DNA of 45,983 bases from an uncultured bacterium (GCA_903872035.1 CAIQIZ010000004.1:1-45983); one strand, 5' to 3'; shown: positions 9,437-30,853, numbered from the stretch's first letter. The notes: a model not told the origin generated them from the sequence alone. A program made the numbers and translations.

Positions 9437-11119
9437 ATGACATTCAGCATGCTACGTTCCAAGCTCGAAAGGGTTATGTCTCCAAAGATGATCATCATAC
9501 CCATGATGATAGTGAGCATTTTTGTTGCCGGATCTATTACTCAAGCTGCCGTACCGACATCTGGACAGGTGGGGGCATGGAAATTTACTTCTGCCCCGGT
9601 CAATCAGAGCATACCCGATTCAAGTACTCTCGATCCAGGCTCATATCTGTGGTCAGTCTCGGCTATGATCAAAGGTAGTGGAGATGGAACTATAGTCTGG
9701 AAAGGTAATAGGTCTGATTCCGATCTTTATAAGCTGGCGATTTCAGGAGGAAAAGCCACGTTCACAATTAATTCCGGCGGAACTGGTGTGACTGCTACGG
9801 CTGTTTCGTCTGCAAGCGTAAACGACGGGAGGTGGCATATGATAACTGGCACGAGGAGCTCGACAAAGACCGCGAACATATATGTTGACGGCGTCCTATC
9901 CGGGACATCAGCATACACGGGCTCCGGTTCAGCTATAGATACTGATACGCCGCTGACCATTGGATCGCAGAATGGAGCCGATCCGTACACCGGTCTCATT
10001 GACCAAGTATACGTTTTTAATCGTGCGCTAGCCGGTGCGGAGATATCAGGGATGTACGCGACACCAACTGGAGGGACATCTGGCACAGGTGGCACGGCTG
10101 GAATAGGTGGTTTGAGCTCACCAACACCTTCGCCGTCGAACCTCCCTGTGACCGGGTGCACTTTGCCGAGCCAGATATTTAACCTGACGAACTGGAAGGT
10201 CACTTTACCTATCGGTTCAAGTCACAGTCCTACGGAGATATTCCAACCGGCATTAGGATCTCTCACCAACCAGTATTTCAAAACGAACTCGTCCTGCACA
10301 GCTGTGGACTTCACGGCCCCGACAGATGGCGTGACCACGAGCGGTTCCAGCTATCCTCGCTCGGAGCTCCGGGAGATGACAGACAATGGGAAGTCGCTAG
10401 CCAGCTGGGGTACAAATGACGGTATCACTCATACCATGTTCATCGATGAGGCCATCCTGGCCGTGCCGGCCACTAAGTCACAAGTCGTGGCTGGACAGAT
10501 TCACGATCCTAATGATGATGTAACGGTGATCAGGTTGGATTACCCTGATCTTCACATCGATTTGAATGGCGCAGCCGGTCCCAGCCTCGACGCACACTAT
10601 GTGCTCGGCCGCCGTTTTACCGTGAAATTGGTCGCTCATGACGGACGGATAGATTACTATTACAACAATAACCCCACTCCGGTTTACACGTATGTCAAAG
10701 CCAGCAGCGGAGATTATTTCAAAGTCGGAGCTTATACGCAGTCGAATTGCAGCCACGAGGCCGCCTGTGGCCCGAATAATTTCGGAGAAGTGGAAGTGTA
10801 CAATACGTGGGTGCAACACGGTGCGGCCGTGAATCCATCGCCGACTGCTTCCCCGCAACCTGGCGGGGGTACGGTTACGCATACCGGCTCGATGAAATTC
10901 ACCATAGGCCAACGGATCGTTTCTGACGCTGTAGTCAATGTCAGGCAGTCTCCCGGAGGCGCGCTTCTGGGGAAGCAAGCCAAAAAATCTACCGGTCTTG
11001 TGGTGGCCGGTCCTATCTACGCTGTCTTGCCCTCTAGCGGTCACTATTTCTGGTGGTGGAATATCGACTTTGCCTCCGGGTCCGATGGTTGGGTGGGGGA
11101 GGACAACCTAAAAAAATAA
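9437..11119 (+). CDS. Secreted LamG + PL7 alginate-lyase-like protein with C-terminal SH3-like domain
   Basis: 560 residues. A signal/anchor helix spans about 17-38 (ending ITQAAVP). A LamG/concanavalin-like domain (about 45-208; GRWHMITGTRSS, NIYVDGVLSG) is followed by a Gly/Thr/Pro linker. Residues about 245-460 match polysaccharide lyase family 7: RSELREM at 308, QIH at 354 and YFKVGAYTQ at 427 are the three PL7 catalytic-site blocks. An SH3-like domain (about 490-560, VVNVRQSPGG...GWVGEDNL) closes the protein. PL7 enzymes cleave alginate or related uronates by beta-elimination. A monocistronic gene. It may digest host or biofilm polysaccharide. Confidence 0.87.
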   Translation: MTFSMLRSKLERVMSPKMIIIPMMIVSIFVAGSITQAAVPTSGQVGAWKFTSAPVNQSIPDSSTLDPGSYLWSVSAMIKGSGDGTIVWKGNRSDSDLYKLAISGGKATFTINSGGTGVTATAVSSASVNDGRWHMITGTRSSTKTANIYVDGVLSGTSAYTGSGSAIDTDTPLTIGSQNGADPYTGLIDQVYVFNRALAGAEISGMYATPTGGTSGTGGTAGIGGLSSPTPSPSNLPVTGCTLPSQIFNLTNWKVTLPIGSSHSPTEIFQPALGSLTNQYFKTNSSCTAVDFTAPTDGVTTSGSSYPRSELREMTDNGKSLASWGTNDGITHTMFIDEAILAVPATKSQVVAGQIHDPNDDVTVIRLDYPDLHIDLNGAAGPSLDAHYVLGRRFTVKLVAHDGRIDYYYNNNPTPVYTYVKASSGDYFKVGAYTQSNCSHEAACGPNNFGEVEVYNTWVQHGAAVNPSPTASPQPGGGTVTHTGSMKFTIGQRIVSDAVVNVRQSPGGALLGKQAKKSTGLVVAGPIYAVLPSSGHYFWWWNIDFASGSDGWVGEDNLKK

Positions 11120-12590: not shown

Positions 12591-13559
12591 ATGAAAAAAA
12601 CATCACTTACAATTTTTGGTCTAGGAAGAATGGGTGCGCAAATAGCTAGAAGGCTCCACAAGAAGGGCTTTAAAGTCGTTGCTTGGAATAGGTCACCGGA
12701 ACCCGTTAAGGAGATCGTGAAGGCGGGTATTTTTGGTACTAGCGATTTAAATGAGGCAGTTGAAGCGACAAAGAATCAACCGCGCATTTTTTGGATAATG
12801 TTACCGCACGCTATTGTAGATGATTTTCTGTTTGGAAAGGATCACCTCGGACCACATTTGAAGAAAGGCGATATCGTGATCGATGGCGGGAATTCTTTCT
12901 TTAAAGATAGCCAGAAAAGATCTGCACGCATGGCTAAGAAAGGCATTCATTATTTCGATTGCGGAACCTCGGGTGGAGTTTGGGGTGAGAAGAATGGTTT
13001 TGCATTGATGGTCGGTGGTCCCAAAGAAAAGTGGTCAATCATTGAACCGATAATGGCAGCGCTTTCGGCAGGTGACAATTTCGCGTACTGCGGCGCTTCT
13101 GGCGCAGGACATTTCGTGAAGATGGTCCACAATGGCATCGAATATGGCATGATGGAAGCGATCGGCGAAGGCTATGCGGTTCTAGAAGCCAGTAAATTCA
13201 AATTGAATATGGCCGATGTGACACGAGTCTACCAACAAGGCTCCGTTGTGAGGAGTTGGCTCATAGATCTCTGCAGGAATATTTTTGAAAATGAAGACGT
13301 TGGAGCAACTAGTGGCAAAATCGATGCTACCGGAGAGGGGGAGTGGACGGTTAAGACCGGTCATGAATTTGGAGTCGACGTGCGTGTCATTGAGGATTCT
13401 CTGAATGTTAGGCGAGAATCAGCTGATCCAAAGAATCAAAAGAAGTATTCAAATAAGATAGTCGCACTGTTAAGGAAGCAGTTTGGTGGGCATGCGGTGC
13501 ATTCGGAGCAAGGAGGAAGGAGCAAGGAGGAAGGAGTAAGGGGTGATGAGAAGAAATGA
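12591..13559 (+). CDS. gnd: 6-phosphogluconate dehydrogenase, short (YqeC/GndA) type
   Basis: Oxidatively decarboxylates 6-phosphogluconate to ribulose 5-phosphate. Rossmann motif TIFGLGRMGAQIARRL near residue 10, DGGNSFFKDSQKRS, GTSGGVWGEKNGFALMVGG (substrate-binding signature) and the catalytic GHFVKMVHNGIEYGMMEAIGEG block are all present. At 322 residues it is the short dimer-forming type rather than the 470-residue enzyme. The last 20 residues (EQGGRSKEEGVRGDEKK) are a purine-rich repeat read in frame and are probably not part of the fold. Pgl lies directly downstream; zwf is not in the window. Confidence 0.93.
   Translation: MKKTSLTIFGLGRMGAQIARRLHKKGFKVVAWNRSPEPVKEIVKAGIFGTSDLNEAVEATKNQPRIFWIMLPHAIVDDFLFGKDHLGPHLKKGDIVIDGGNSFFKDSQKRSARMAKKGIHYFDCGTSGGVWGEKNGFALMVGGPKEKWSIIEPIMAALSAGDNFAYCGASGAGHFVKMVHNGIEYGMMEAIGEGYAVLEASKFKLNMADVTRVYQQGSVVRSWLIDLCRNIFENEDVGATSGKIDATGEGEWTVKTGHEFGVDVRVIEDSLNVRRESADPKNQKKYSNKIVALLRKQFGGHAVHSEQGGRSKEEGVRGDEKK
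13505..13541 (+). repeat. Purine-rich repeat at the 3' end of gnd (copy 2 of 3)
   Basis: Two tandem units of caaggaggaaggag followed by taagg, with one pyrimidine per unit. The segment encodes QGGRSKEEGVRG in the gnd frame. The same protein string RSKEEGV appears in pgl and RSKEDGV in dus. Confidence 0.6.
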
Positions 13560-13567
13560 CTCTAGAG

Positions 13568-13693
13568 AGATTTCAGATTCCAAATCTCAGATTCCAGATA
13601 AGCTCCAGATTTCAGGCATCAGTTACCAATTGGAATCTAGTATCTGGAGCCTGTGATCTTTACCTGGAATCTGTAATCTGGAATCTGAAATCT
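13568..13693 (+). repeat. Intergenic imperfect palindrome with 14-bp perfect ends
   Basis: The 126-base stretch between gnd and pgl begins AGATTTCAGATTCC and ends with the exact reverse complement GGAATCTGAAATCT. Inside, many variants of ATCTGGAATCTG alternate on both strands, so the arms pair over most of their length. It resembles a MITE or interspersed palindromic repeat and could form a long RNA hairpin between the two cistrons. It is open as an in-frame 5' extension of pgl but looks non-coding. Confidence 0.75.
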
Positions 13694-13702
13694 AATAAAT
13701 CG

Positions 13703-14386
13703 ATGCTTAAATTCATCACAGAAAAGTCCGAAGTTGGTGTAAATAGCCTCGCGACTAGGATTGCCGAGCTTTTGAATGCTGGTAAAAAAGTTCTCTGGTT
13801 GGTCTCTGGAGGCTCAAATATCGCTTTAGAAGTGGATATCTTGAACAAGGTTAGGGTTGGTGTGAAGTTGGATAAATTGGGCCTGTTAACAATTTCGCAG
13901 ACAGATGAACGATACGGTCCTGTCGGGCATCCTGATTCGAATTGGCAGCAAATGAAAGATGTTGGTTTTGACTTTAAAGGAGTGGTAGCTTTGCCCGCGC
14001 TTACCAACCTGTCTACTGTTCAGACTGTCGATCGTTGGTCAAATGAGATCGAACAGGCTTTCAATGGTTCTGACACGATCGTCGCCCAATTTGGAATAGG
14101 TGCTGATGGCCATATAGCTGGAATTTTGCCGCATTCAAAGGCGATTGGAGCAAGAAGCAAGGAGGAAGGAGTAAAATCAGCAATCGCCTACGAAGCGCCG
14201 CCATTTATTCGCATAACGCTGACGCCGGCAATACTTACCAAAGTGAACGAAGCCTACGTTTTCGCCTATGGTGATTCAAAGAAAAAGACTTTGCAGGATT
14301 TGCGCGATAGGGATCTGCCAATCGATGAACAGCCGGCTCAGATATTAAAGTCATTGCCAGAAGTTTCAATATACACAGACGCCTAA
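13703..14386 (+). CDS. pgl: 6-phosphogluconolactonase
   Basis: About 227 residues from ATG 13703. Motifs of the DevB/SOL family are LWLVSGGSN (phosphate loop), TISQTDERYGPVGHPDSNW, and FGIGADGHIAGILPHSKA with the catalytic His. It hydrolyses 6-phosphogluconolactone, the step before gnd, so the pair supplies pentose and NAD(P)H. The frame stays open upstream into the palindromic repeat, but that part is not homologous. A purine-rich repeat (14146-14174) adds RSKEEGV after HSKAIGA in a surface loop. It ends by overlapping the convergent PAP2 gene by four bases. Confidence 0.9.
   Translation: MLKFITEKSEVGVNSLATRIAELLNAGKKVLWLVSGGSNIALEVDILNKVRVGVKLDKLGLLTISQTDERYGPVGHPDSNWQQMKDVGFDFKGVVALPALTNLSTVQTVDRWSNEIEQAFNGSDTIVAQFGIGADGHIAGILPHSKAIGARSKEEGVKSAIAYEAPPFIRITLTPAILTKVNEAYVFAYGDSKKKTLQDLRDRDLPIDEQPAQILKSLPEVSIYTDA
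14146..14174 (+). repeat. Purine-rich repeat inside pgl (copy 3 of 3)
   Basis: ggagcaagaagcaaggaggaaggagtaa-type sequence encoding GARSKEEGVK. It is inserted just after the catalytic GADGHIAG block, in the same translation phase as the copies in gnd and dus. Confidence 0.6.
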
Positions 14387-15081
14387 TTTTTCGCTTCTAA
14401 TTTGAAATCACCTTGGTAGTCATGGGAATAGAGCAGTCTGGACATGCGATATATTCCGTAAGAGATGAAGAAGGCCGACATTACATCGATGGTGTAGTGC
14501 AATTTTGCCAGTAGGACAACGACGCCGAAAATTATAGATAAGGTGATAAAAATTACTCTCAACCATTTGCGATCATAATAAATGAAGGCCATGAGAAATG
14601 GTAAACCAGTGTGTCCGGAAAAGAATGAGTCGTTACCAAGGAATGTTGACGAGTACAGATTGATGCCGATGACGTCTACGATAAGGTTTTGCGAAGAGGG
14701 ATGAATGGCAGCGTGAGTTGGAAAAGCTCCGATATGGGTGAGAATGATGAAGAGAGAACGGACGATCATGAATGTCGATATGGTTTTTACTGTGAAAGGG
14801 ATCCTCTTGGGTTGCCAAAGGCATATCAGGATGATGAAGAACACCATTATGATAGCGCCGTTAACGAAAGTTCCATCGAGATCGACTACGGGGATATTGC
14901 TGAGGATGAGGTCAGTGACTGAGCTGCTGGCGCTTTCTGTAGCATACTGCACGGCATAAGAGCTGATGACGAAACCGGCAACCAATAAGAAAATGGCCGT
15001 TATGAATGAATACCAAAAACGTTTGCTGGTAAAACAAGCTTTGTACTGATCATTAAGTCCTCGCCAAAATGTTGGTAACAT
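14383..15081 (-). CDS. Sphingomyelin-synthase-like PAP2 membrane protein
   Basis: About 232 residues with six predicted transmembrane helices. The C-terminal half carries FFSGHTGLPFLMAF and LLAKLHYTIDVMSAFF, which match the D3 (SGHT) and D4 (HYTxDV) motifs of the PAP2_C/sphingomyelin synthase branch and provide the His-His-Asp catalytic triad. Such enzymes move or remove phosphate-linked head groups on lipids. In this context lipid phosphatase or head-group transfer are both possible; true sphingolipids are not expected. It lies five codons downstream of the flavin reductase gene on the same strand. Confidence 0.82.
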   Translation of the reverse strand: MLPTFWRGLNDQYKACFTSKRFWYSFITAIFLLVAGFVISSYAVQYATESASSSVTDLILSNIPVVDLDGTFVNGAIIMVFFIILICLWQPKRIPFTVKTISTFMIVRSLFIILTHIGAFPTHAAIHPSSQNLIVDVIGINLYSSTFLGNDSFFSGHTGLPFLMAFIYYDRKWLRVIFITLSIIFGVVVLLAKLHYTIDVMSAFFISYGIYRMSRLLYSHDYQGDFKLEAKN

Positions 15082-15103
15082 GTGCAAGTATTGTAACACT
15101 TAT

Positions 15104-16627
15104 CTAAAATCCTGGAAAATAATCGGTTTTGATGTGGCTTCGCGGTACGCCCATGCCGATCAGATTTTGCTTACAGGCAGAAACAAGTGAATTGGGTCCA
15201 GAAATATAAAACATCCGATCTTGATAATCCGACACTTCAGCGGCTATCATGGCAGCATCAACATAGCCACGATGACCATTCCAGTCAGGACGAATCGAAT
15301 CTTGATCAGAGAGTGTGAATACGGATTTCGTACCAAAAGCCATATTGGCACGCTTTAACAAGTCCAAGTAGGCCAAGTCGGATTCCTTTCTGACCGAGTA
15401 CACGACTATGACATCACGCTTTTCGTTGGTATCGAGCATGTATTGGATCATGCTGCGAAAAGGCGTAAAACCGATTCCTCCGGCGATGAAGCAAAGTTTT
15501 TTCGATGGGTCCTTCGGCAAAGTAAAATCGCCTGCCAATTGCCCGGCCATGATCGTGCCGCCTTCCGGCAGTTCAGCCAAGTTAACCTTGAAAGTGCTTG
15601 GCTTGTTGGCATCGAACTTAACTCCCAATCGTATCTCTTTCTCAGTTGGAGAGGAGGCTATCGTAAAATACCTGCGGTTTCCGCGGCTATCGGGTCTGCC
15701 GTGAGCAAGAGTCCATTCTAGATATTGACCAGGTTTGAATGACACTGGCTTATTGGATGCAAAGACAAATTCACCAGTGTCTGTTGCTATTCGCGCTTTG
15801 CTTTTCAGTGTAAGAGTATATTTATGCTTTGGTGATAACATGAAGGAGAGGATATTTCCAACGACTAGTGCCAGTTCAGGAGTCGAATAGAATGATCCTA
15901 TATGGATATTTGGTGCGAATAACACACCGACCAAAGCCCCATAAAGAATTCTCTGTAATCTGGCCGGTGGAGTAGTGAGCGGCTCGGTCAACATGACCGT
16001 GGCAAAGAAGACGATGGGGGATATGACGAATAGGCTTTGAAGGCTGAATAAAATGTTCGTCAATCCGTTCGTAGTAACGATAACAGTAACGATGGCTGCA
16101 ATGAAAAACGATACGAGAAGATCCGTTCGCCGAATTTTTCTGACGATCAGGAATCCGCCAATGATAACGAATGGCAACATGTAGAGAGTACCGATCCACC
16201 ACGTTGCCGATTGATTTAATGCAAAAGCAGTTATCACTATTGCCAGTGCTGCTGGGTTAAATGCGTGCTTCTTATTGAATGCAAAAATGAACTTTGAAGC
16301 CATGGACCAGATGGCAGCCCAGATCAGGAACGGCAATATTGAAACAAAGCTTCCTGGAATCGGAGGCGAGATGATGAGAGCTAGAATAAGTGCGGTTATA
16401 TAGATCGACTCGGTATTTGCATGAGTTTCGAATACCAGAGAGAATAGGCGATTTGTGATCCATGCTACAACGAGTAGAATTGCTGTTGAATATAATATGG
16501 CCTCCGGTGCATACGGTAATAGATGGAGATATCCAAAAACGGCGGCAATAACCAACCAGGTGATAAGGCAGTACAAGACGAGCTTGTACATAGTGATCCT
16601 GTTGAGAAAGTTATCGATTAGTTTCAT
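15104..16627 (-). CDS. RnfD/NqrB-like membrane domain fused to an FAD/NAD(P) reductase
   Basis: 507 residues. Residues 15-265 contain about nine membrane helices with RnfD/NqrB hallmarks: KKHAFNPAALAI (119-130) and MLTEPLTTPP (212-221), the latter corresponding to the site where FMN is linked to Thr in RnfD. Residues about 270-507 are a ferredoxin-NADP reductase module: RRYFTIASSP for FAD binding, CFIAGGIGFTPFRSM for nucleotide binding and a C-terminal FYISGPNSLV. The fusion predicts electrons moving from NAD(P)H through FAD to membrane FMN. It overlaps apbE by 17 bases and sits downstream of it and the FMN-binding gene, forming one operon. Confidence 0.88.
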   Translation of the reverse strand: MKLIDNFLNRITMYKLVLYCLITWLVIAAVFGYLHLLPYAPEAILYSTAILLVVAWITNRLFSLVFETHANTESIYITALILALIISPPIPGSFVSILPFLIWAAIWSMASKFIFAFNKKHAFNPAALAIVITAFALNQSATWWIGTLYMLPFVIIGGFLIVRKIRRTDLLVSFFIAAIVTVIVTTNGLTNILFSLQSLFVISPIVFFATVMLTEPLTTPPARLQRILYGALVGVLFAPNIHIGSFYSTPELALVVGNILSFMLSPKHKYTLTLKSKARIATDTGEFVFASNKPVSFKPGQYLEWTLAHGRPDSRGNRRYFTIASSPTEKEIRLGVKFDANKPSTFKVNLAELPEGGTIMAGQLAGDFTLPKDPSKKLCFIAGGIGFTPFRSMIQYMLDTNEKRDVIVVYSVRKESDLAYLDLLKRANMAFGTKSVFTLSDQDSIRPDWNGHRGYVDAAMIAAEVSDYQDRMFYISGPNSLVSACKQNLIGMGVPRSHIKTDYFPGF

Positions 16628-17366
16628 ATTTTTTAAATCCGCTAGTCATGGTTGCAACGGCGTCGGCATCAATCATATATCCTTCAAATCCTCGTAATGT
16701 CTCGATGAATTCTATCCCTTTCTTACCCATCGCAAAAGCCGGCGTAACGAAGCGGTCAGCTTCATAAACGTTCGGTCCGACGACTGTTAAGCTAACGATA
16801 TCAGTAATATCTTCGGCCATTTTCTTCGGATCATATATATGCTGACCGCGAATGTAAGTGCCGGATGTGGCAACGCCCTTATTGCCTGGGTAGAGGACTT
16901 TTACGATTTCTTTTTGGTTGAAGGGATTTTTGATGCCGACGCTCCACGGTTTGCCGAGAGCATTTGATCCGTGAGCTTGGATATCGCCCCCAGCCTCGAC
17001 ATAGAAATTCTCATAGCCAGATTTCTTGAGGAGATCTGCTGCATTTCTAATCGCCCAACCTTTGACTATGCCCGATGGATCAAGGATCCCTTTTCGGTTG
17101 ACGATATTGAAATAGCCGTCAGATTCTTCTTTTGTCTTTTCGGATAAAGCAAATATCTCGCGCACATCTTGACTAGATGCTTCTATGGATAGTTCGCCTC
17201 TATTGATCCTCATTATCTCGCTGGAATCTTTGTATACACTAAAAGTTTTGTCGACATAAGTGAAATAGTCGAAAATATTACCCATATCTTTAGGTGCCGT
17301 TGATGTCGAATCGCCGACGATTTCCAGCGTTATCGGCATACCCATGATTAGTCGTGTTTCTTTCAT
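16611..17366 (-). CDS. apbE: FAD:protein FMN transferase (ApbE family)
   Basis: Transfers FMN from FAD to a Thr of target flavoproteins. Motifs: MGMPITLEI near the start, DPSGIVKGWAI, FYVEAGGDI, GVATSGTYIRGQHIYDP and EADRFVTPAFAMG (metal and FAD sites). Likely targets are encoded on either side: the SGATQTS Thr of the upstream protein and the TEPLTTP Thr of the downstream membrane protein. Unusually, no signal peptide or lipobox is visible; most ApbE proteins work outside the membrane. The upstream gene's stop is 10 bases before this ATG, so no hidden N-terminus exists. Confidence 0.92.
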   Translation of the reverse strand: MKETRLIMGMPITLEIVGDSTSTAPKDMGNIFDYFTYVDKTFSVYKDSSEIMRINRGELSIEASSQDVREIFALSEKTKEESDGYFNIVNRKGILDPSGIVKGWAIRNAADLLKKSGYENFYVEAGGDIQAHGSNALGKPWSVGIKNPFNQKEIVKVLYPGNKGVATSGTYIRGQHIYDPKKMAEDITDIVSLTVVGPNVYEADRFVTPAFAMGKKGIEFIETLRGFEGYMIDADAVATMTSGFKKYETNR

Positions 17367-17376
17367 GGGTCCTTAG

Positions 17377-17997
17377 TTAGTTTGTGGCAAGCGCAAGAGC
17401 TGAAGAAAGTGACTGAACGAATGCCTGACTAGTCTGGGTCGCTCCAGATACTATATTAACCTTAGCGCTTTGAGCGGCTATAGCTTCGCTGCGGAGGATC
17501 GGAGTCGCTCGCGAATTGATCTGCTGGGAAGTCCGTCGATCGCTAGGATATTGTAAGAATGTGACATCAGATAATCTGCCTCCACTTATGGTGGCAACGA
17601 CTTGCATATTCCCATAATACGCGTCTGTCACGGGACCTGTGTATGAGCCGTTTTTGTATAAACCGGAATTTACCGCAACGCTCACTGGGGTAGGGGCTGG
17701 AGCAACCACCGTTTTCGGCTTGATAGAAGGTGTCGACACTGTAACCTTTGGCGTCGGCTTTGTTACGGGAGTCTTTGGCGCGTCGTCTTCTGAGTCTTCG
17801 TCGCTTCCGCTAGCAATATCTTCCGAAGGTTTAATAGTCGTTGGAGAAGGTGTCGGAGAAACTATTGGAATTACAGATGTTGTGGGTGTTTGATCGGTGA
17901 TTGTTGCCAACGGTTGACCATTTGTCCGTCCAGAGCTCAACATGACATAAAATGCAAATGCGATAATCAACACAAACGAGAGCAGGAATTTTTTCAT
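17377..17997 (-). CDS. Exported FMN-binding domain protein (RnfG/NqrC-like)
   Basis: 206 residues: N-terminal signal anchor (about 3-22, MKKFLLSFVLIIAFAFYVML), a long low-complexity Pro/Thr/Ser and acidic linker (about 30-110), then an FMN_bind domain (about 115-206) beginning YKNGSYTGPVTDAYYGNMQV and ending with VNIVSGATQTSQAF. The SGATxT motif is the flavinylation site used by ApbE. The protein should be outside the cytoplasmic membrane with a flexible tether reaching into the wall. First gene of the flavin operon. Confidence 0.9.
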   Translation of the reverse strand: MKKFLLSFVLIIAFAFYVMLSSGRTNGQPLATITDQTPTTSVIPIVSPTPSPTTIKPSEDIASGSDEDSEDDAPKTPVTKPTPKVTVSTPSIKPKTVVAPAPTPVSVAVNSGLYKNGSYTGPVTDAYYGNMQVVATISGGRLSDVTFLQYPSDRRTSQQINSRATPILRSEAIAAQSAKVNIVSGATQTSQAFVQSLSSALALATN

Positions 17998-19747: not shown

Positions 19748-20500
19748 CTATGGCAACCAACTTCTGATCAATTGTTTGGTATCATCTGGTCCTTTGACCG
19801 ATATGCAGTCGACACCAGTGGCTTTGGCTGGAAAATCATTTCCGCCGTAAAAAAGGGCGTCACCGACGAAGACGATGTCATTGGAATCGATCTTCAAAAA
19901 TTGCTCGAGCTTGCGGATGCCGTAACCTTTGTTGATACCGCGCTTGGTCACATCGATAGAGGTTGCTCCACCTACGCGCACTTCAAATTCAGGGATTCTT
20001 TCGCTGAGAACCGAAGCCAACCTTTCGCGTTTCGTCCGAGTAGGATCCCAGGCATATTTGATGTCAGCGGGAGCGCTCTGTCCCAGAGCGGAAAAAGTAA
20101 TCTGCGACCCTCTGTCTTCGATGAGCGGCCCATAGATCTTTGCTGGTTGTTCATATTTCATGATCTTGAGCGCCGTGTCTAATGCAGACATGATCCGTTG
20201 CTTCTCGTTCGGTAGCAAATTCTCGGTGTATTGCTCGACCCAGTTTCCTCTCCAGACAAACAAGCGCGTTCCCGAAGTCGGCATCAATAATAAGTTATCG
20301 TAGTTCTCTGAAGTCCCCGGCAACTGTGCCAGAAATTGTGTTTGAAATTGAGGAAATCCACCGCCAGAAATGATAGCGACTTTTTTTTGTTGTAGAAGCT
20401 TCACAACGAGTTCAGCCGTCTCTTTGTCCATCGGAGACTTGCTGATCGTTAACGTTCCGTCTAGATCGAAGATGATTAGTTGTTTTGAGTATGCGGTCAT
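19748..20500 (-). CDS. HAD-superfamily phosphomannomutase-like phosphatase/mutase
   Basis: 250 residues, HAD type IIB. Motif I is LIIFDLDGTLT (nucleophile and acid/base Asp), motif II ISGG, motif IV VGDALFYGGNDFPA, with cap residues EDRGSQITFSALGQSAP and W-D-P as in eukaryotic-type PMM. PMM interconverts mannose 1-phosphate and mannose 6-phosphate. It is the last gene of an operon with two GH130 proteins and a phosphomannose isomerase, which supports this activity over a general sugar phosphatase. Confidence 0.83.
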   Translation of the reverse strand: MTAYSKQLIIFDLDGTLTISKSPMDKETAELVVKLLQQKKVAIISGGGFPQFQTQFLAQLPGTSENYDNLLLMPTSGTRLFVWRGNWVEQYTENLLPNEKQRIMSALDTALKIMKYEQPAKIYGPLIEDRGSQITFSALGQSAPADIKYAWDPTRTKRERLASVLSERIPEFEVRVGGATSIDVTKRGINKGYGIRKLEQFLKIDSNDIVFVGDALFYGGNDFPAKATGVDCISVKGPDDTKQLIRSWLP

Positions 20501-20542: not shown

Positions 20543-22423
20543 TCAAACCTCCAGCATCTTTAACAAAGTCGCCATCTTCATCGTTGCAACACCAACGACT
20601 TGGTCGGCGCCACCATAGTACATGTACGCCGTACCGCCACGTACGGTCAGTCCACAAGGGAAGACCACGTTAGGGACTATACCCTTGCACTCATATTGTT
20701 CTTTGGGTGCAAATAGCGGCTCAGCCGTTCTCGCCTTGACGATCGTCGGGTCGGCAAGATCCAAGAGGACTGCTCCGATACGATAGGTAGTGCTCCAGGA
20801 TACGCCATGATACAGGAGAAGCCAGCCCATCTTGGTCTTGATCGGTGGCGCAGATATGCCAACCTTGCCACCATCCCACATGCCCCGTCTCGGCGTGATG
20901 ATCTCGATACATTGAGTTATCTTGTATTTCGAAAAGTCGAGCGAGGCCACGAAGTCTGCGCAAACGCTCTCGTTCACACGGTGGAATACCATATATCCAC
21001 CTTTGCATGGTTCGGGCAAAATAGCCGCATCTTTGTTGGCTATAGATGGTGGGGTTATGATCTCTGGCTTTGACCAAGAACCCCATTTCTTTTTGAGGAA
21101 ATCTTCTGTCCCGATAGAGCTCACAGCAACTCGCGGAGTGCTTCCATCATAGGCCGTGTAGGCCATAAATACACGATCACCGATCTTCATGATGCGTGGA
21201 TCCTCGCATCCTTTCGATTCAAAATCTGCTCGCGGAAAATAGATAGGCTTGTCCGAACGTTCGTCGATGGACAATCCGTCGATAGAAGAGGCGTATCCAA
21301 CAGTTGATATATTATCGACAGAAACTGCTCGGTACAATATATGAGTCTTGTCACCCAGATCGATCGCGGCAGGATTGAGTGTCCCTCGAGTCTCCCAAAG
21401 CATTCCTGGACGAGGTGAAATTATCGGATTGCCAGCGAAACGCTTGAAGCATGACCTCCTGTTGTCTGTCAGGACATCCATGAGGTTATCGAGCGGAATA
21501 GACGCTACGGCACAATGAGTATCGGCAGCACCGTAATAGATCTTCAAACGGCCATCTTCTATCAGAGCTCCAGTCGGAAAGATCACATGGGCGACTTGTC
21601 CGGTATTCTCGTAATACTCCTCGGGTACCATGAAGGGACCTCTCGTTCTTCCGATCACGTGACGGGGATTCTCCAGGTCTAGAAGAACGATCTCAATACC
21701 GAAGACTTGATCACCTTGGCCATAACGTTGCATATGTGAATACACAACCAGCCATCCCTTGTCTGTTCGAACCGGTGCGGCACCTAGTTCGATATGGTCG
21801 CTCGGTAATCTGCGGATAGATATCTTATGAGACTCGAGATTTTTCCACCATTCATTCCAAAAATCAGGCGACCAGATATCTTCCTCATTATTGAATTCGA
21901 CGTAACATATATCCGAAGGTTTTCTATCGGTATTTACTGTAATCAAAGCGGCCATTTTCCCATTGATCTTATCAGGGAAGAGCGCCATGGCTTTGGCGTT
22001 AAAAGGAGTGACAAGATGCTTTTCGGTGATCGTATTTAAGTCTTTGGAGATCGCAACTGCGACTTTGATATTGTCTGCAGAAAAAGGGTATCCTCCGAGC
22101 GCTGTATAAAAAATATAATATTTTCCATTCAGTTTCGTGACACGCGGATCTTCGCATCCATAGTAATCGAATTCACGATCTGGTGAGACGAGTACGTGGC
22201 GATCCTCGAAGTCGATGCCGTTGGTCGAAGATGCCCTGGCGATCACTGACATGCGGACATGAGGATCTCGCAGAAGGTCTGGCTCTGACATGGCGCGATA
22301 AATCAGATAAGTTTTTTTGCCGACAACGACTGGACAGCCGTTGAAAGCGGCGGCGGCCTCCCAAGGATGTTCGCGTAGGGGAGAGAGAAGAGGATTATGT
22401 TCGGATCTTTTGAGTGTGAACAT
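20543..22423 (-). CDS. Tandem GH130 beta-mannoside phosphorylase-like protein
   Basis: 626 residues containing two five-bladed propeller modules (about 1-310 and 315-626). Each has the GH130 block: YGCEDPRVTKLNGKYYIFYTA in the first and KGCEDPRIMKIGDRVFMAYTA in the second, plus GWLVVYSHM and GWLLLYHGV strand motifs and YYGAADTHCAVA / YYGGADQVVGVA ends. GH130 enzymes release mannose 1-phosphate from beta-mannosides using phosphate. Both halves look complete, so this is a duplication-fusion. No signal peptide: cytoplasmic. It lies nine bases after the third GH130 gene. Confidence 0.88.
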   Translation of the reverse strand: MFTLKRSEHNPLLSPLREHPWEAAAAFNGCPVVVGKKTYLIYRAMSEPDLLRDPHVRMSVIARASSTNGIDFEDRHVLVSPDREFDYYGCEDPRVTKLNGKYYIFYTALGGYPFSADNIKVAVAISKDLNTITEKHLVTPFNAKAMALFPDKINGKMAALITVNTDRKPSDICYVEFNNEEDIWSPDFWNEWWKNLESHKISIRRLPSDHIELGAAPVRTDKGWLVVYSHMQRYGQGDQVFGIEIVLLDLENPRHVIGRTRGPFMVPEEYYENTGQVAHVIFPTGALIEDGRLKIYYGAADTHCAVASIPLDNLMDVLTDNRRSCFKRFAGNPIISPRPGMLWETRGTLNPAAIDLGDKTHILYRAVSVDNISTVGYASSIDGLSIDERSDKPIYFPRADFESKGCEDPRIMKIGDRVFMAYTAYDGSTPRVAVSSIGTEDFLKKKWGSWSKPEIITPPSIANKDAAILPEPCKGGYMVFHRVNESVCADFVASLDFSKYKITQCIEIITPRRGMWDGGKVGISAPPIKTKMGWLLLYHGVSWSTTYRIGAVLLDLADPTIVKARTAEPLFAPKEQYECKGIVPNVVFPCGLTVRGGTAYMYYGGADQVVGVATMKMATLLKMLEV

Positions 22424-22431
22424 AGAGGAAA

Positions 22432-23556
22432 TTAGACTTTACCATGTTCAACCAACCAATTAAGCAATTGTTTTAATGGCGTCTGAGCAATACATACATG
22501 CCTGTCTCCGCCACCATAATAGACCATCAGATTGTCGCCTAGAATCACTGCGCCGCTAGCGTAAACCACACCTGGTTTTCCATCATTCTCATAATTCATC
22601 TCCGGATTGAGGATCGGTTCAGGCGAACGATAGAGAACTTTGGTTGGGTCTTTCAGGTCTAGAATCATTGCTCCGATCCTATATCCGATGCCGTATTTAT
22701 CAGGATCGTCCTTATCGATAGCGTGGTAAAGGAGTAGCCAGCCGATCTCTGTCTTGAGCGGTGGTGGACCGGCGCCACGGACGCGGTTATCCCAGAATTC
22801 TTTGCGTCCAACCTGGACCCCTTGGGGACGGGTGCTCTTAATATGGGTAGTCAAATTATCTAAGCTATCGACGTATTCGATGGCTATATTCGGTACTATG
22901 CTGTTCAGGATTGCGTATTTGCTGTTTATCTTCTCTGGAAATATCAGCCAATTCTTGGCGACGTAACCAGGAGGAGATATGAGAACAGGTCGACGCCAGC
23001 GCCACTTCTTATGTTTAAAATCATCTATACCGATAGAAGTCAGAGCGATCCTAACGGAGTTCCATCCTTCGAAGGCTACGTATGTCATATAGATCTTGCC
23101 ATCTATCCTCACCGCTCTCGGGTCCTCTGAACCACCCCATCCTCCGCCGGAAGTATAAAAAGATGGATCGTAATTACGAGGTCCGTAGGAAGATTTTGAA
23201 GCTGGCATACCATAATCCGGCAGGGGCTCATAGACTGGATACATGGGTCGATCATCGAAATGTAAACCATCGGTGCTCGAGGCATAGCCGATTCGGGATA
23301 TACCATCAGCGCCAACTGCACGGTACAAAAGGTGGACTTTTCCATCATCATCCTTGATCGCGGTCGGATTGAATGTCCCGTTCAGCTCCCATTCATGGAC
23401 AGCAAGAGGAGATATTACCGGGTTTTTGTGATGGCGTGTCAGCTTGAAAGATGGCCGCTTGAGTCCGTATACTCTCTTGATCTCAAGAAAAGCGAATACG
23501 CATGCCGCGAATGCTGCGACGAAGGCGATCAGAGAAAGTGTGATTGTTAAGTTCAT
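22432..23556 (-). CDS. Membrane-anchored GH130-family protein
   Basis: 374 residues. An N-terminal helix (about 3-25) is followed by a GH130 propeller: HKNPVISPLAVHEWELNGTFNPTA, WGGSEDPRAVRIDGKIYMTYVAFEG, GWLLLYHAIDKDD and YYGGGDRHVCIAQ. The EDPR block is intact. The single anchor would hold the enzyme at the membrane; orientation is not certain, since phosphorolysis needs inorganic phosphate and is usually intracellular. It is 17 bases downstream of the cupin gene and nine upstream of the tandem GH130 gene. Confidence 0.88.
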   Translation of the reverse strand: MNLTITLSLIAFVAAFAACVFAFLEIKRVYGLKRPSFKLTRHHKNPVISPLAVHEWELNGTFNPTAIKDDDGKVHLLYRAVGADGISRIGYASSTDGLHFDDRPMYPVYEPLPDYGMPASKSSYGPRNYDPSFYTSGGGWGGSEDPRAVRIDGKIYMTYVAFEGWNSVRIALTSIGIDDFKHKKWRWRRPVLISPPGYVAKNWLIFPEKINSKYAILNSIVPNIAIEYVDSLDNLTTHIKSTRPQGVQVGRKEFWDNRVRGAGPPPLKTEIGWLLLYHAIDKDDPDKYGIGYRIGAMILDLKDPTKVLYRSPEPILNPEMNYENDGKPGVVYASGAVILGDNLMVYYGGGDRHVCIAQTPLKQLLNWLVEHGKV

Positions 23557-30034: not shown

Positions 30035-30697
30035 ATGCCACACATTTTCCTAGACGAGAGCGGACAGTTTTCTAAACATAGCCACGAAAAGTATTTTGTG
30101 GTTGCGTCATTTACCGTAGGCGACATTCGTCGAACAGCGAAAGGATTCCGGGCATGGTGCAGAAGTCATTTTCCCAGGAAAATGCGTGATCAGAGTGAGA
30201 TAAAGTGGTCGTCAACGAGATATCCCGATAGCTTGCGTTTGAAAATGTTGCGTGAAATTTCAAAGCTTGATGTGCGAATACGGTTTGCATATCTACTCCA
30301 CAGAAATATTCCAGCGGACTATCATCATAAAAACAAATTGAAAAGCGGACTGTTATATACCAATATTGTCGGCGAAATATTGACATCGTACTTGCCGATA
30401 ACTGATAAAGAATTCCGTGTTTTCTGTGATCGTAGAAAATTGAGCGGAATGTCTGAAGCCGAATTCAAAGAAATTCTTAAGGCGAGACTTCTTCCGGGAT
30501 TACCGAAGAATGTAGTGTTACAAATTGAAATGGTTGATTCGGCCGCAGTGGTCAATATTCAGATAGCTGATTGGATAGCCGGAGCCTTGGCACGATACCT
30601 TGAAAAGGGGAAGCTTGGAGAAGAATGTTTCCAGATTTTGAAAGGTAATATCATCGGGGAAGGGAAGGAACTATTTAACGGAGAGACGATCGCATAA
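30035..30697 (+). CDS. DUF3800 domain protein
   Basis: 220 residues beginning MPHIFLDESGQFSKHSHEKYFVVASF, the DUF3800 signature (DESG with the first acidic site). Later conserved parts include FRVFCDRRKLSG near residue 128 and VDSAAVVNIQIADWIAGALARYLE near 170, where the second acidic residues lie. The family has an RNase H-like fold by prediction and is common next to mobile elements, but its activity is unproven. It sits just outside the integrase end of the phage and may be a passenger of the integration site. Confidence 0.85.
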   Translation: MPHIFLDESGQFSKHSHEKYFVVASFTVGDIRRTAKGFRAWCRSHFPRKMRDQSEIKWSSTRYPDSLRLKMLREISKLDVRIRFAYLLHRNIPADYHHKNKLKSGLLYTNIVGEILTSYLPITDKEFRVFCDRRKLSGMSEAEFKEILKARLLPGLPKNVVLQIEMVDSAAVVNIQIADWIAGALARYLEKGKLGEECFQILKGNIIGEGKELFNGETIA

Positions 30698-30728: not shown

Positions 30729-30853
30729 AGAAGTAGCGTCTCACAAGGTGGTGCTCTCCAACTCAAGCCCCAGATACTCTGAGGGAACATCGGAGCGCCT
30801 CGTAAGTTATTATTGCGTACTTCTGGTACAAGACTAGCAAACTCGATGCGTGT

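Follow-up and report, generated by a model that had tools for sequence, protein, structure and literature searches.

Three genes on the minus strand of an uncultured bacterium's DNA (GCA_903872035.1 CAIQIZ010000004.1:1-45983; the whole 45,983-nucleotide stretch analysed is called the window) are in our judgement a likely member of the NQR/RNF-like flavinylation systems, coding for a one-way transmembrane electron wire of two proteins together with the enzyme that attaches the flavin. Relative to Rnf and Na+-NQR, the membrane protein of this wire has lost a whole segment, and the attaching enzyme has no export leader.

The cassette and its class

The trio occupies positions 15104-17997 in the order FMN_bind, ApbE, RnfD/NqrB-reductase fusion and forms an operon. 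The three open reading frames lie where the sequence-only reading had put them, all on the minus strand, and Pfam backs each one at curated cut-offs of 22 (FMN_bind), 25.6 (ApbE), 27.7 (NQR2_RnfD_RnfE) and 22 bits (NAD_binding_1). That reading called the trio one overlapping operon; the genes are indeed tightly packed, but the 17 bp shared by ApbE and the fusion are the only overlap, and a 10 bp gap separates FMN_bind from ApbE. The features are as follows.

17377..17997, minus strand: FMN_bind protein, 206 aa (Pfam FMN_bind, 29.9 bits)
17437..17439, minus strand: codon of Thr187, predicted covalent FMN acceptor in S184-G-A-T187-Q-T (sequence, motif position)
16611..17366, minus strand: ApbE (FAD:protein FMN transferase), 251 aa, without export leader (Pfam ApbE, 131.9 bits)
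15104..16627, minus strand: fusion of RnfD/NqrB-like membrane domain and FAD/NAD(P) reductase, 507 aa (Pfam, AlphaFold2 model)
15824..16627, minus strand: membrane domain of the fusion, residues 1-268 (model helices, RnfD/NqrB alignment)
16199..16258, minus strand: N124-W143 of the fusion, the place of the missing FMN-Thr-bearing five-helix linker (alignment)
15107..15823, minus strand: cytosolic FAD and NAD(P) binding domain of the fusion, residues 269-507 (NAD_binding_1, 60.9 bits; fold)
14383..15099, minus strand: PAP2-type membrane phosphatase (PAP2_C, 39.7 bits)

NQR/RNF-like systems were defined by an NqrB/RnfD-PF00175 fusion encoded in flavinylation clusters. The defining study counted them in 127 genomes, for the most part Actinobacteria and members of the candidate phyla radiation, and proposed that electrons flow one way from NAD(P)H (Meheust 2021, PMC8238504). 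The window has an N-terminal PF03116 and a C-terminal PF00175 domain in one protein, with ApbE and FMN_bind adjacent. Like the published systems, it thus joins an NqrB/RnfD-type membrane domain fused to a PF00175 reductase with an exported FMN_bind protein and ApbE, and in both the membrane flavinylation site is not conserved. We found no defining difference between them. As the class was already published in 2021 and 2024, the value of the present case lies in detail and testability and not in discovery. What is added is the loss of a whole linker, which explains the missing Thr, the mapping of riboflavin ligands, the leaderless ApbE and a plasmid copy.

The PAP2 phosphatase gene begins 4 bp past the fusion and is probably co-transcribed with the cassette. 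It was rejected as a fourth member, adjoining the cassette elsewhere only in the closest relative (L002). Promoter-like sites were slightly more frequent than in shuffled sequences; otherwise, scans for promoters and terminators gave nothing above that background. Beside the cassette on the opposite strand are genes for 6-phosphogluconate dehydrogenase and 6-phosphogluconolactonase (12591-14386, plus strand), a possible source of NADPH for it. Farther off, two tandem GH130 mannooligosaccharide phosphorylases (20543-23556, minus strand), the phosphomannomutase-like gene adjoining them (19748-20500) and a secreted LamG and alginate-lyase protein (9437-11119) make up a carbohydrate-use cluster. 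A DUF3800 gene (30035-30697, plus strand) is followed just downstream, on the opposite strand, by the Rfam 'DUF3800-V' RNA motif (30729-30824, minus strand, 75.6 bits).

The membrane domain of the fusion lacks the FMN-bearing linker

The fusion scores 60.9 bits with NAD_binding_1 (PF00175) and 29.4 bits with NQR2_RnfD_RnfE (PF03116), the latter barely over the 27.7 cut-off. FAD_binding_6 falls under its cut-off by sequence, and the fold is clear. In the AlphaFold2 model (39 sequences; mean pLDDT 89.0, pTM 0.75), the membrane part matches RnfD of Azotobacter vinelandii (8rbq_D) with a Z of 24.2 over 248 residues at 3.6 A, and the C-terminal part matches FNR-type reductases, including NqrF, with a Z of about 26-28.

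In RnfD of Clostridium tetanomorphum, helices V and VI are joined by a five-helix linker (residues 140-190), and Thr153 within it carries the FMN (PMC9588780). Profile comparison with one RnfD aligned only the C-terminal half of the fusion; adding six RnfD and NqrB sequences resolved the alignment, which then held four RnfD and three NqrB references, each with the Thr motif in the linker stretch. Against these seven, only about 18 residues separate the FNPA motif from the next helix in the fusion family, and the span corresponding to N124-G158 is 33-46 residues long in 40 family members versus 74-110 in RnfD and NqrB. The extracytosolic FMN-Thr linker is absent from the window fusion and from all 40 family rows. 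With the five helices the membrane-domain covalent FMN-Thr site is therefore absent as well, leaving the cassette with one covalent flavin site instead of two. A Roizmanbacteria protein consisting of the membrane domain alone, with no reductase (L040, 5791-6606), also has no FMN-Thr linker.

This result goes against the earlier expectation of a second Thr flavinylation site on the membrane domain, the carrying segment being absent from 40 of 40 rows. The sequence-only reading had itself named lack of the Thr sites in homologues as evidence that would count against it, and for the membrane domain that is what we find. A chain of three flavins, one of them a second covalent FMN held by a membrane-domain Thr as in Rnf and Nqr, could draw on the RnfD/NqrB homology of the fusion and on the mention of NqrB/RnfD flavinylation when the fusion was described (Meheust 2021, PMC8238504), but given that universal absence and the report that the NqrB/RnfD flavinylation site is not conserved in the NQR/RNF-like class (Huang 2024, PMC11334425), we regard it as highly improbable.

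The site of the non-covalent flavin is another matter. Riboflavin ligands in Vibrio cholerae NqrB include Thr162, Asn200, Asn203, Ala205 and Asp346 (PMC10643135). Mapped through the V. campbellii NqrB sequence, with a one-residue offset allowed for, their counterparts in the fusion are T78, H121, N124, A126 and E215. H121, N124 and E215 do not vary across 39 sequences; position 78 holds Thr or Ser, and position 126 holds Ala or Val. Judged by alignment, then, the riboflavin-site residues of NqrB are kept or conservatively replaced in the fusion family, which suggests that the cytosolic half of the membrane domain binds a flavin non-covalently. The invariant Asn-to-His and Asp-to-Glu changes could mean that a different flavin is bound.

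The FMN_bind protein is predicted to be exported and tethered

The FMN_bind protein starts with a membrane anchor (about residues 1-22), followed by an acidic linker rich in Pro, Thr and Ser and by the FMN-binding domain (about residues 114-206). It is predicted to be exported and to stay tethered to the membrane. An SGATxT site had been noted before and is present as SGATQT at residues 184-189. In a phmmer comparison (E 2e-12) it aligns with SGATYT of 8p2a, an FMN-binding domain whose crystal structure comes from work on covalent multi-flavin proteins. All 28 FMN_bind homologues have a hydrophobic N-terminus, with a maximum mean hydropathy of 1.9-3.3 over 15 residues; both this signal-anchor-like N-terminus and the leader of ApbE were judged by hydropathy and not by SignalP or another trained signal-peptide predictor.

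Conservation of the acceptor Thr itself was borne out in part. Of 22 canonical homologues, 13 have Thr as the acceptor and nine have Ser. Six divergent partners have non-canonical acceptor motifs of the G[AS]S or SS type. They belong to a subgroup of loci (L026, L033, L034, L036, L037 and L039) where the motif reads, for example, GGASLT, NGSSLT or TSSLT; most of these partners score under the Pfam cut-off. The searches run found no second FMN_bind protein in the host genome.

ApbE is complete in fold without an export leader

An export leader is common, if not universal, in the ApbE family, and the cassette enzyme has none. The first strand of its model (pLDDT 94.7) begins at residue 2. The model aligns with 1vrm from residue 1 (246 residues, Z 29.3), and with solved ApbEs it gives Z values of 27-29 over about 245 residues. 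In these structural alignments its residue 1 falls, for instance, at residue 24 of V. cholerae ApbE and residue 42 of Listeria FmnB. An in-frame TAA stop (17373-17375) is found six bases upstream of the ATG. H176 and D204 are at least 90% conserved, and H176 aligns with the catalytic His region, in mature numbering, of the V. cholerae enzyme. A hydrophobic leader was found in none of 29 cassette ApbEs (maximum hydropathy 0.3-1.6). The cassette ApbE is leaderless yet complete in fold, and no other ApbE was found in the host genome. We did not find a leaderless ApbE with an exported target discussed for NQR/RNF-like systems.

Having no export leader, the enzyme probably acts in the cytosol, before its target is exported. 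Flavinylation before export is the simplest reading of the sequences; that ApbE in this NQR/RNF-like branch attaches FMN in the cytosol and the flavinylated protein is exported afterwards is nevertheless a tentative proposal, to which we give slightly less than an even chance. The alternative is that the leaderless ApbE is itself exported by an unrecognised route. The ApbE of Klebsiella pneumoniae is likewise cytosolic and without a signal peptide (PMC12052999), but its target is a soluble cytosolic fumarate reductase, whereas export is predicted for the target of the cassette enzyme. Cytosolic flavinylation, if true, would make it needless for the cell to export FAD. A search for FAD synthase gave a best match of 19.5 bits, under the cut-off of 27.

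The cassette is linked but patchily distributed

We searched 84,980 species genomes with the fusion protein as query. Full or nearly full fusions were found at 38 loci with 36-75% identity, nearly all of them in Patescibacteria/CPR or metagenome-assembled genomes. FMN_bind and ApbE lie beside the fusion in 25 of the 38, and 21 of these also match the window in gene order (FMN_bind, ApbE, fusion) and strand. A survey of CPR for fused RnfD-reductase proteins next to ApbE and FMN_bind genes had been suggested from the window alone; with the trio together at 25 loci, the adjacency is not due to chance. One or both partner genes are missing in the other 13 within the stretch covered, several of which are at contig ends. 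Eleven more loci came from genomes of relatives, nine with all three genes and one with ApbE and the fusion. Within the collection of papers searched, none joined Patescibacteria or Parcubacteria with ApbE.

The fusion is an accessory trait of patchy occurrence, present at full length in 13 of 100 relatives and in 44 of 287 genomes of the phylum. That patchiness, together with a relative (G037) whose fusion is interrupted by two in-frame TAA stops, might suggest a decaying or non-functional remnant, but the three window genes are intact with their catalytic and ligand residues conserved, and we think there is very little chance of this.

Plasmid pB2-1-1 of Mesorhizobium sp. B2-1-1 carries the cassette in the same order (L042, 6408-9509). 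Its fusion is 47.5% identical to that of the window over the full length, and falls within the Patescibacteria set, branching with a sequence from Candidatus Adlerbacteria (support 99/94), in a comparison with few taxa outside Patescibacteria. VIT and cytochrome b genes accompany this copy.

Proposed electron path

The sequence-only reading had predicted a complete path from NAD(P)H to an outside FMN, and the domains present do predict one. FAD in the cytosolic reductase domain would be reduced by NAD(P)H, and from there electrons would move on to a flavin, probably riboflavin, held non-covalently in the cytosolic half of the RnfD/NqrB-like domain. The next carrier would be the FMN attached covalently by ApbE to Thr187 of the tethered outside protein, which may dock at the mouth opened by the missing linker. 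From this FMN electrons would pass to an extracellular acceptor, in one direction and without ion pumping. With the linker gone, the outside FMN could approach the membrane flavin site directly, as it does in a published AlphaFold-multimer model of a Ktedonobacter homologue (Huang 2024, PMC11334425). Direction, flavin content, docking and cytosolic flavinylation are all parts of the path deduced indirectly.

Relation to Rnf, Na+-NQR and Listeria

The cassette shares ancestry with parts of Rnf (RnfABCDGE) and Na+-NQR (NqrA-F). Its membrane domain is homologous to RnfD/NqrB and keeps the riboflavin ligands, its FMN_bind protein is related to RnfG/NqrC, and its reductase domain is like NqrF. It differs in that its membrane domain has no covalent FMN and its reductase is fused to the flavin-carrying subunit, and ion pumping is not to be expected of it. 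We rejected its identification as an Rnf or Nqr complex, finding neither the PF02508 subunits nor the covalent FMN-Thr on RnfD/NqrB that define one. RnfA/E-NqrD/E (PF02508) had no match in the host genome, which is rated 100% complete, while four control genomes matched. A normal Rnf or Nqr complex elsewhere in the genome, named beforehand as a finding that would tell against the cassette, accordingly did not appear by this search; the PF03116 whole-genome search missed even the window's own weak domain, and its negative carries no weight. The earlier statement that the fusion replaces several Rnf/Nqr subunits is too strong, because the second-limb and ion-pumping subunits are absent and the fusion does not take over the function of those complexes.

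In Listeria, flavin-based extracellular electron transfer (Ndh2, FmnB, PplA) is similarly an NADH-fed export to an outside protein that is covalently flavinylated (PMC8238504). The membrane step there uses Ndh2 and quinones, whereas here it would use an RnfD-like flavoprotein, and FmnB is described as acting outside the cell (PMC9973259), in contrast to the leaderless ApbE of the cassette.

Possible roles in the host

The host genome is 1.05 Mb with a completeness of 100. COX1, cytochrome bd and the ATP synthase a-subunit had no match in it, nor did VIT1 and Ldh_1_C, while control genomes matched. The oxidase and a-subunit absences fit a host without a respiratory chain, as the sequence-only reading had supposed. 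We also scanned 119 neighbour genes with Pfam in two sets; among the first 25 families listed for each, none recurred in more than two members per set, and neighbour genes are only hints to the role of the cassette.

An outside ferric or metal reductase feeding metal uptake is a possible role, one that we hold with some doubt. A VIT1 gene lies directly downstream of the fusion at one locus (L006) and another near the Mesorhizobium cassette, an Nramp gene is directly upstream at L015, and six clusters of the class have VIT1 (Meheust 2021, PMC8238504). These are few loci, however: no metal gene recurs among the neighbours scanned or was recognised beside the window cassette, and the host has no VIT1 match.

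The cassette could instead act as an electron sink by which a fermenting host regenerates NAD(P)+, with an outside acceptor or a partner cell receiving the electrons. The lack of matches to COX1, cytochrome bd, the ATP synthase a-subunit and the Ldh_1_C family dehydrogenase in a complete genome would agree with this. We consider it rather unlikely, as the patchy occurrence given above implies that most comparable fermenters manage without the cassette, and no acceptor, multihaem or appendage gene was recognised next to it.

Upkeep of the envelope's redox state (copper, oxidants, thiols), induced by stress regulators, also seems a rather unlikely role. It would account for the ECF sigma factor and membrane protein genes directly upstream at L007, L018 and L029, for two-component pairs in the vicinity of L005, L012 and L013, for cupredoxins beside L031 and L032 and, next to the Mesorhizobium copy, for genes of a histidine kinase, a response regulator and a PepSY protein. 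Each association is limited to two or three loci, though, and none adjoins the window cassette. The genes for the sigma factor and the unassigned membrane protein, upstream of FMN_bind (L007, 1760-3083; L018, 3393-4690; L029, 3395-4721), are possibly a sigma/anti-sigma pair controlling the cassette there. The cupredoxin genes (L031, 1-198 and 1806-2315; L032, 7765-8229) lie beside fusions at loci where no FMN_bind or ApbE was seen, and the cupredoxins are a possible alternative outside electron carrier.

With its three flavins, the two-protein NQR/RNF-like wire may represent the smallest form that such a wire can take. The missing linker makes it testable whether the outside FMN reaches the membrane flavin directly, and the leaderless ApbE whether flavin attachment can precede export. 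The cassette would place a compact electron-export system in a host without a detected respiratory chain.
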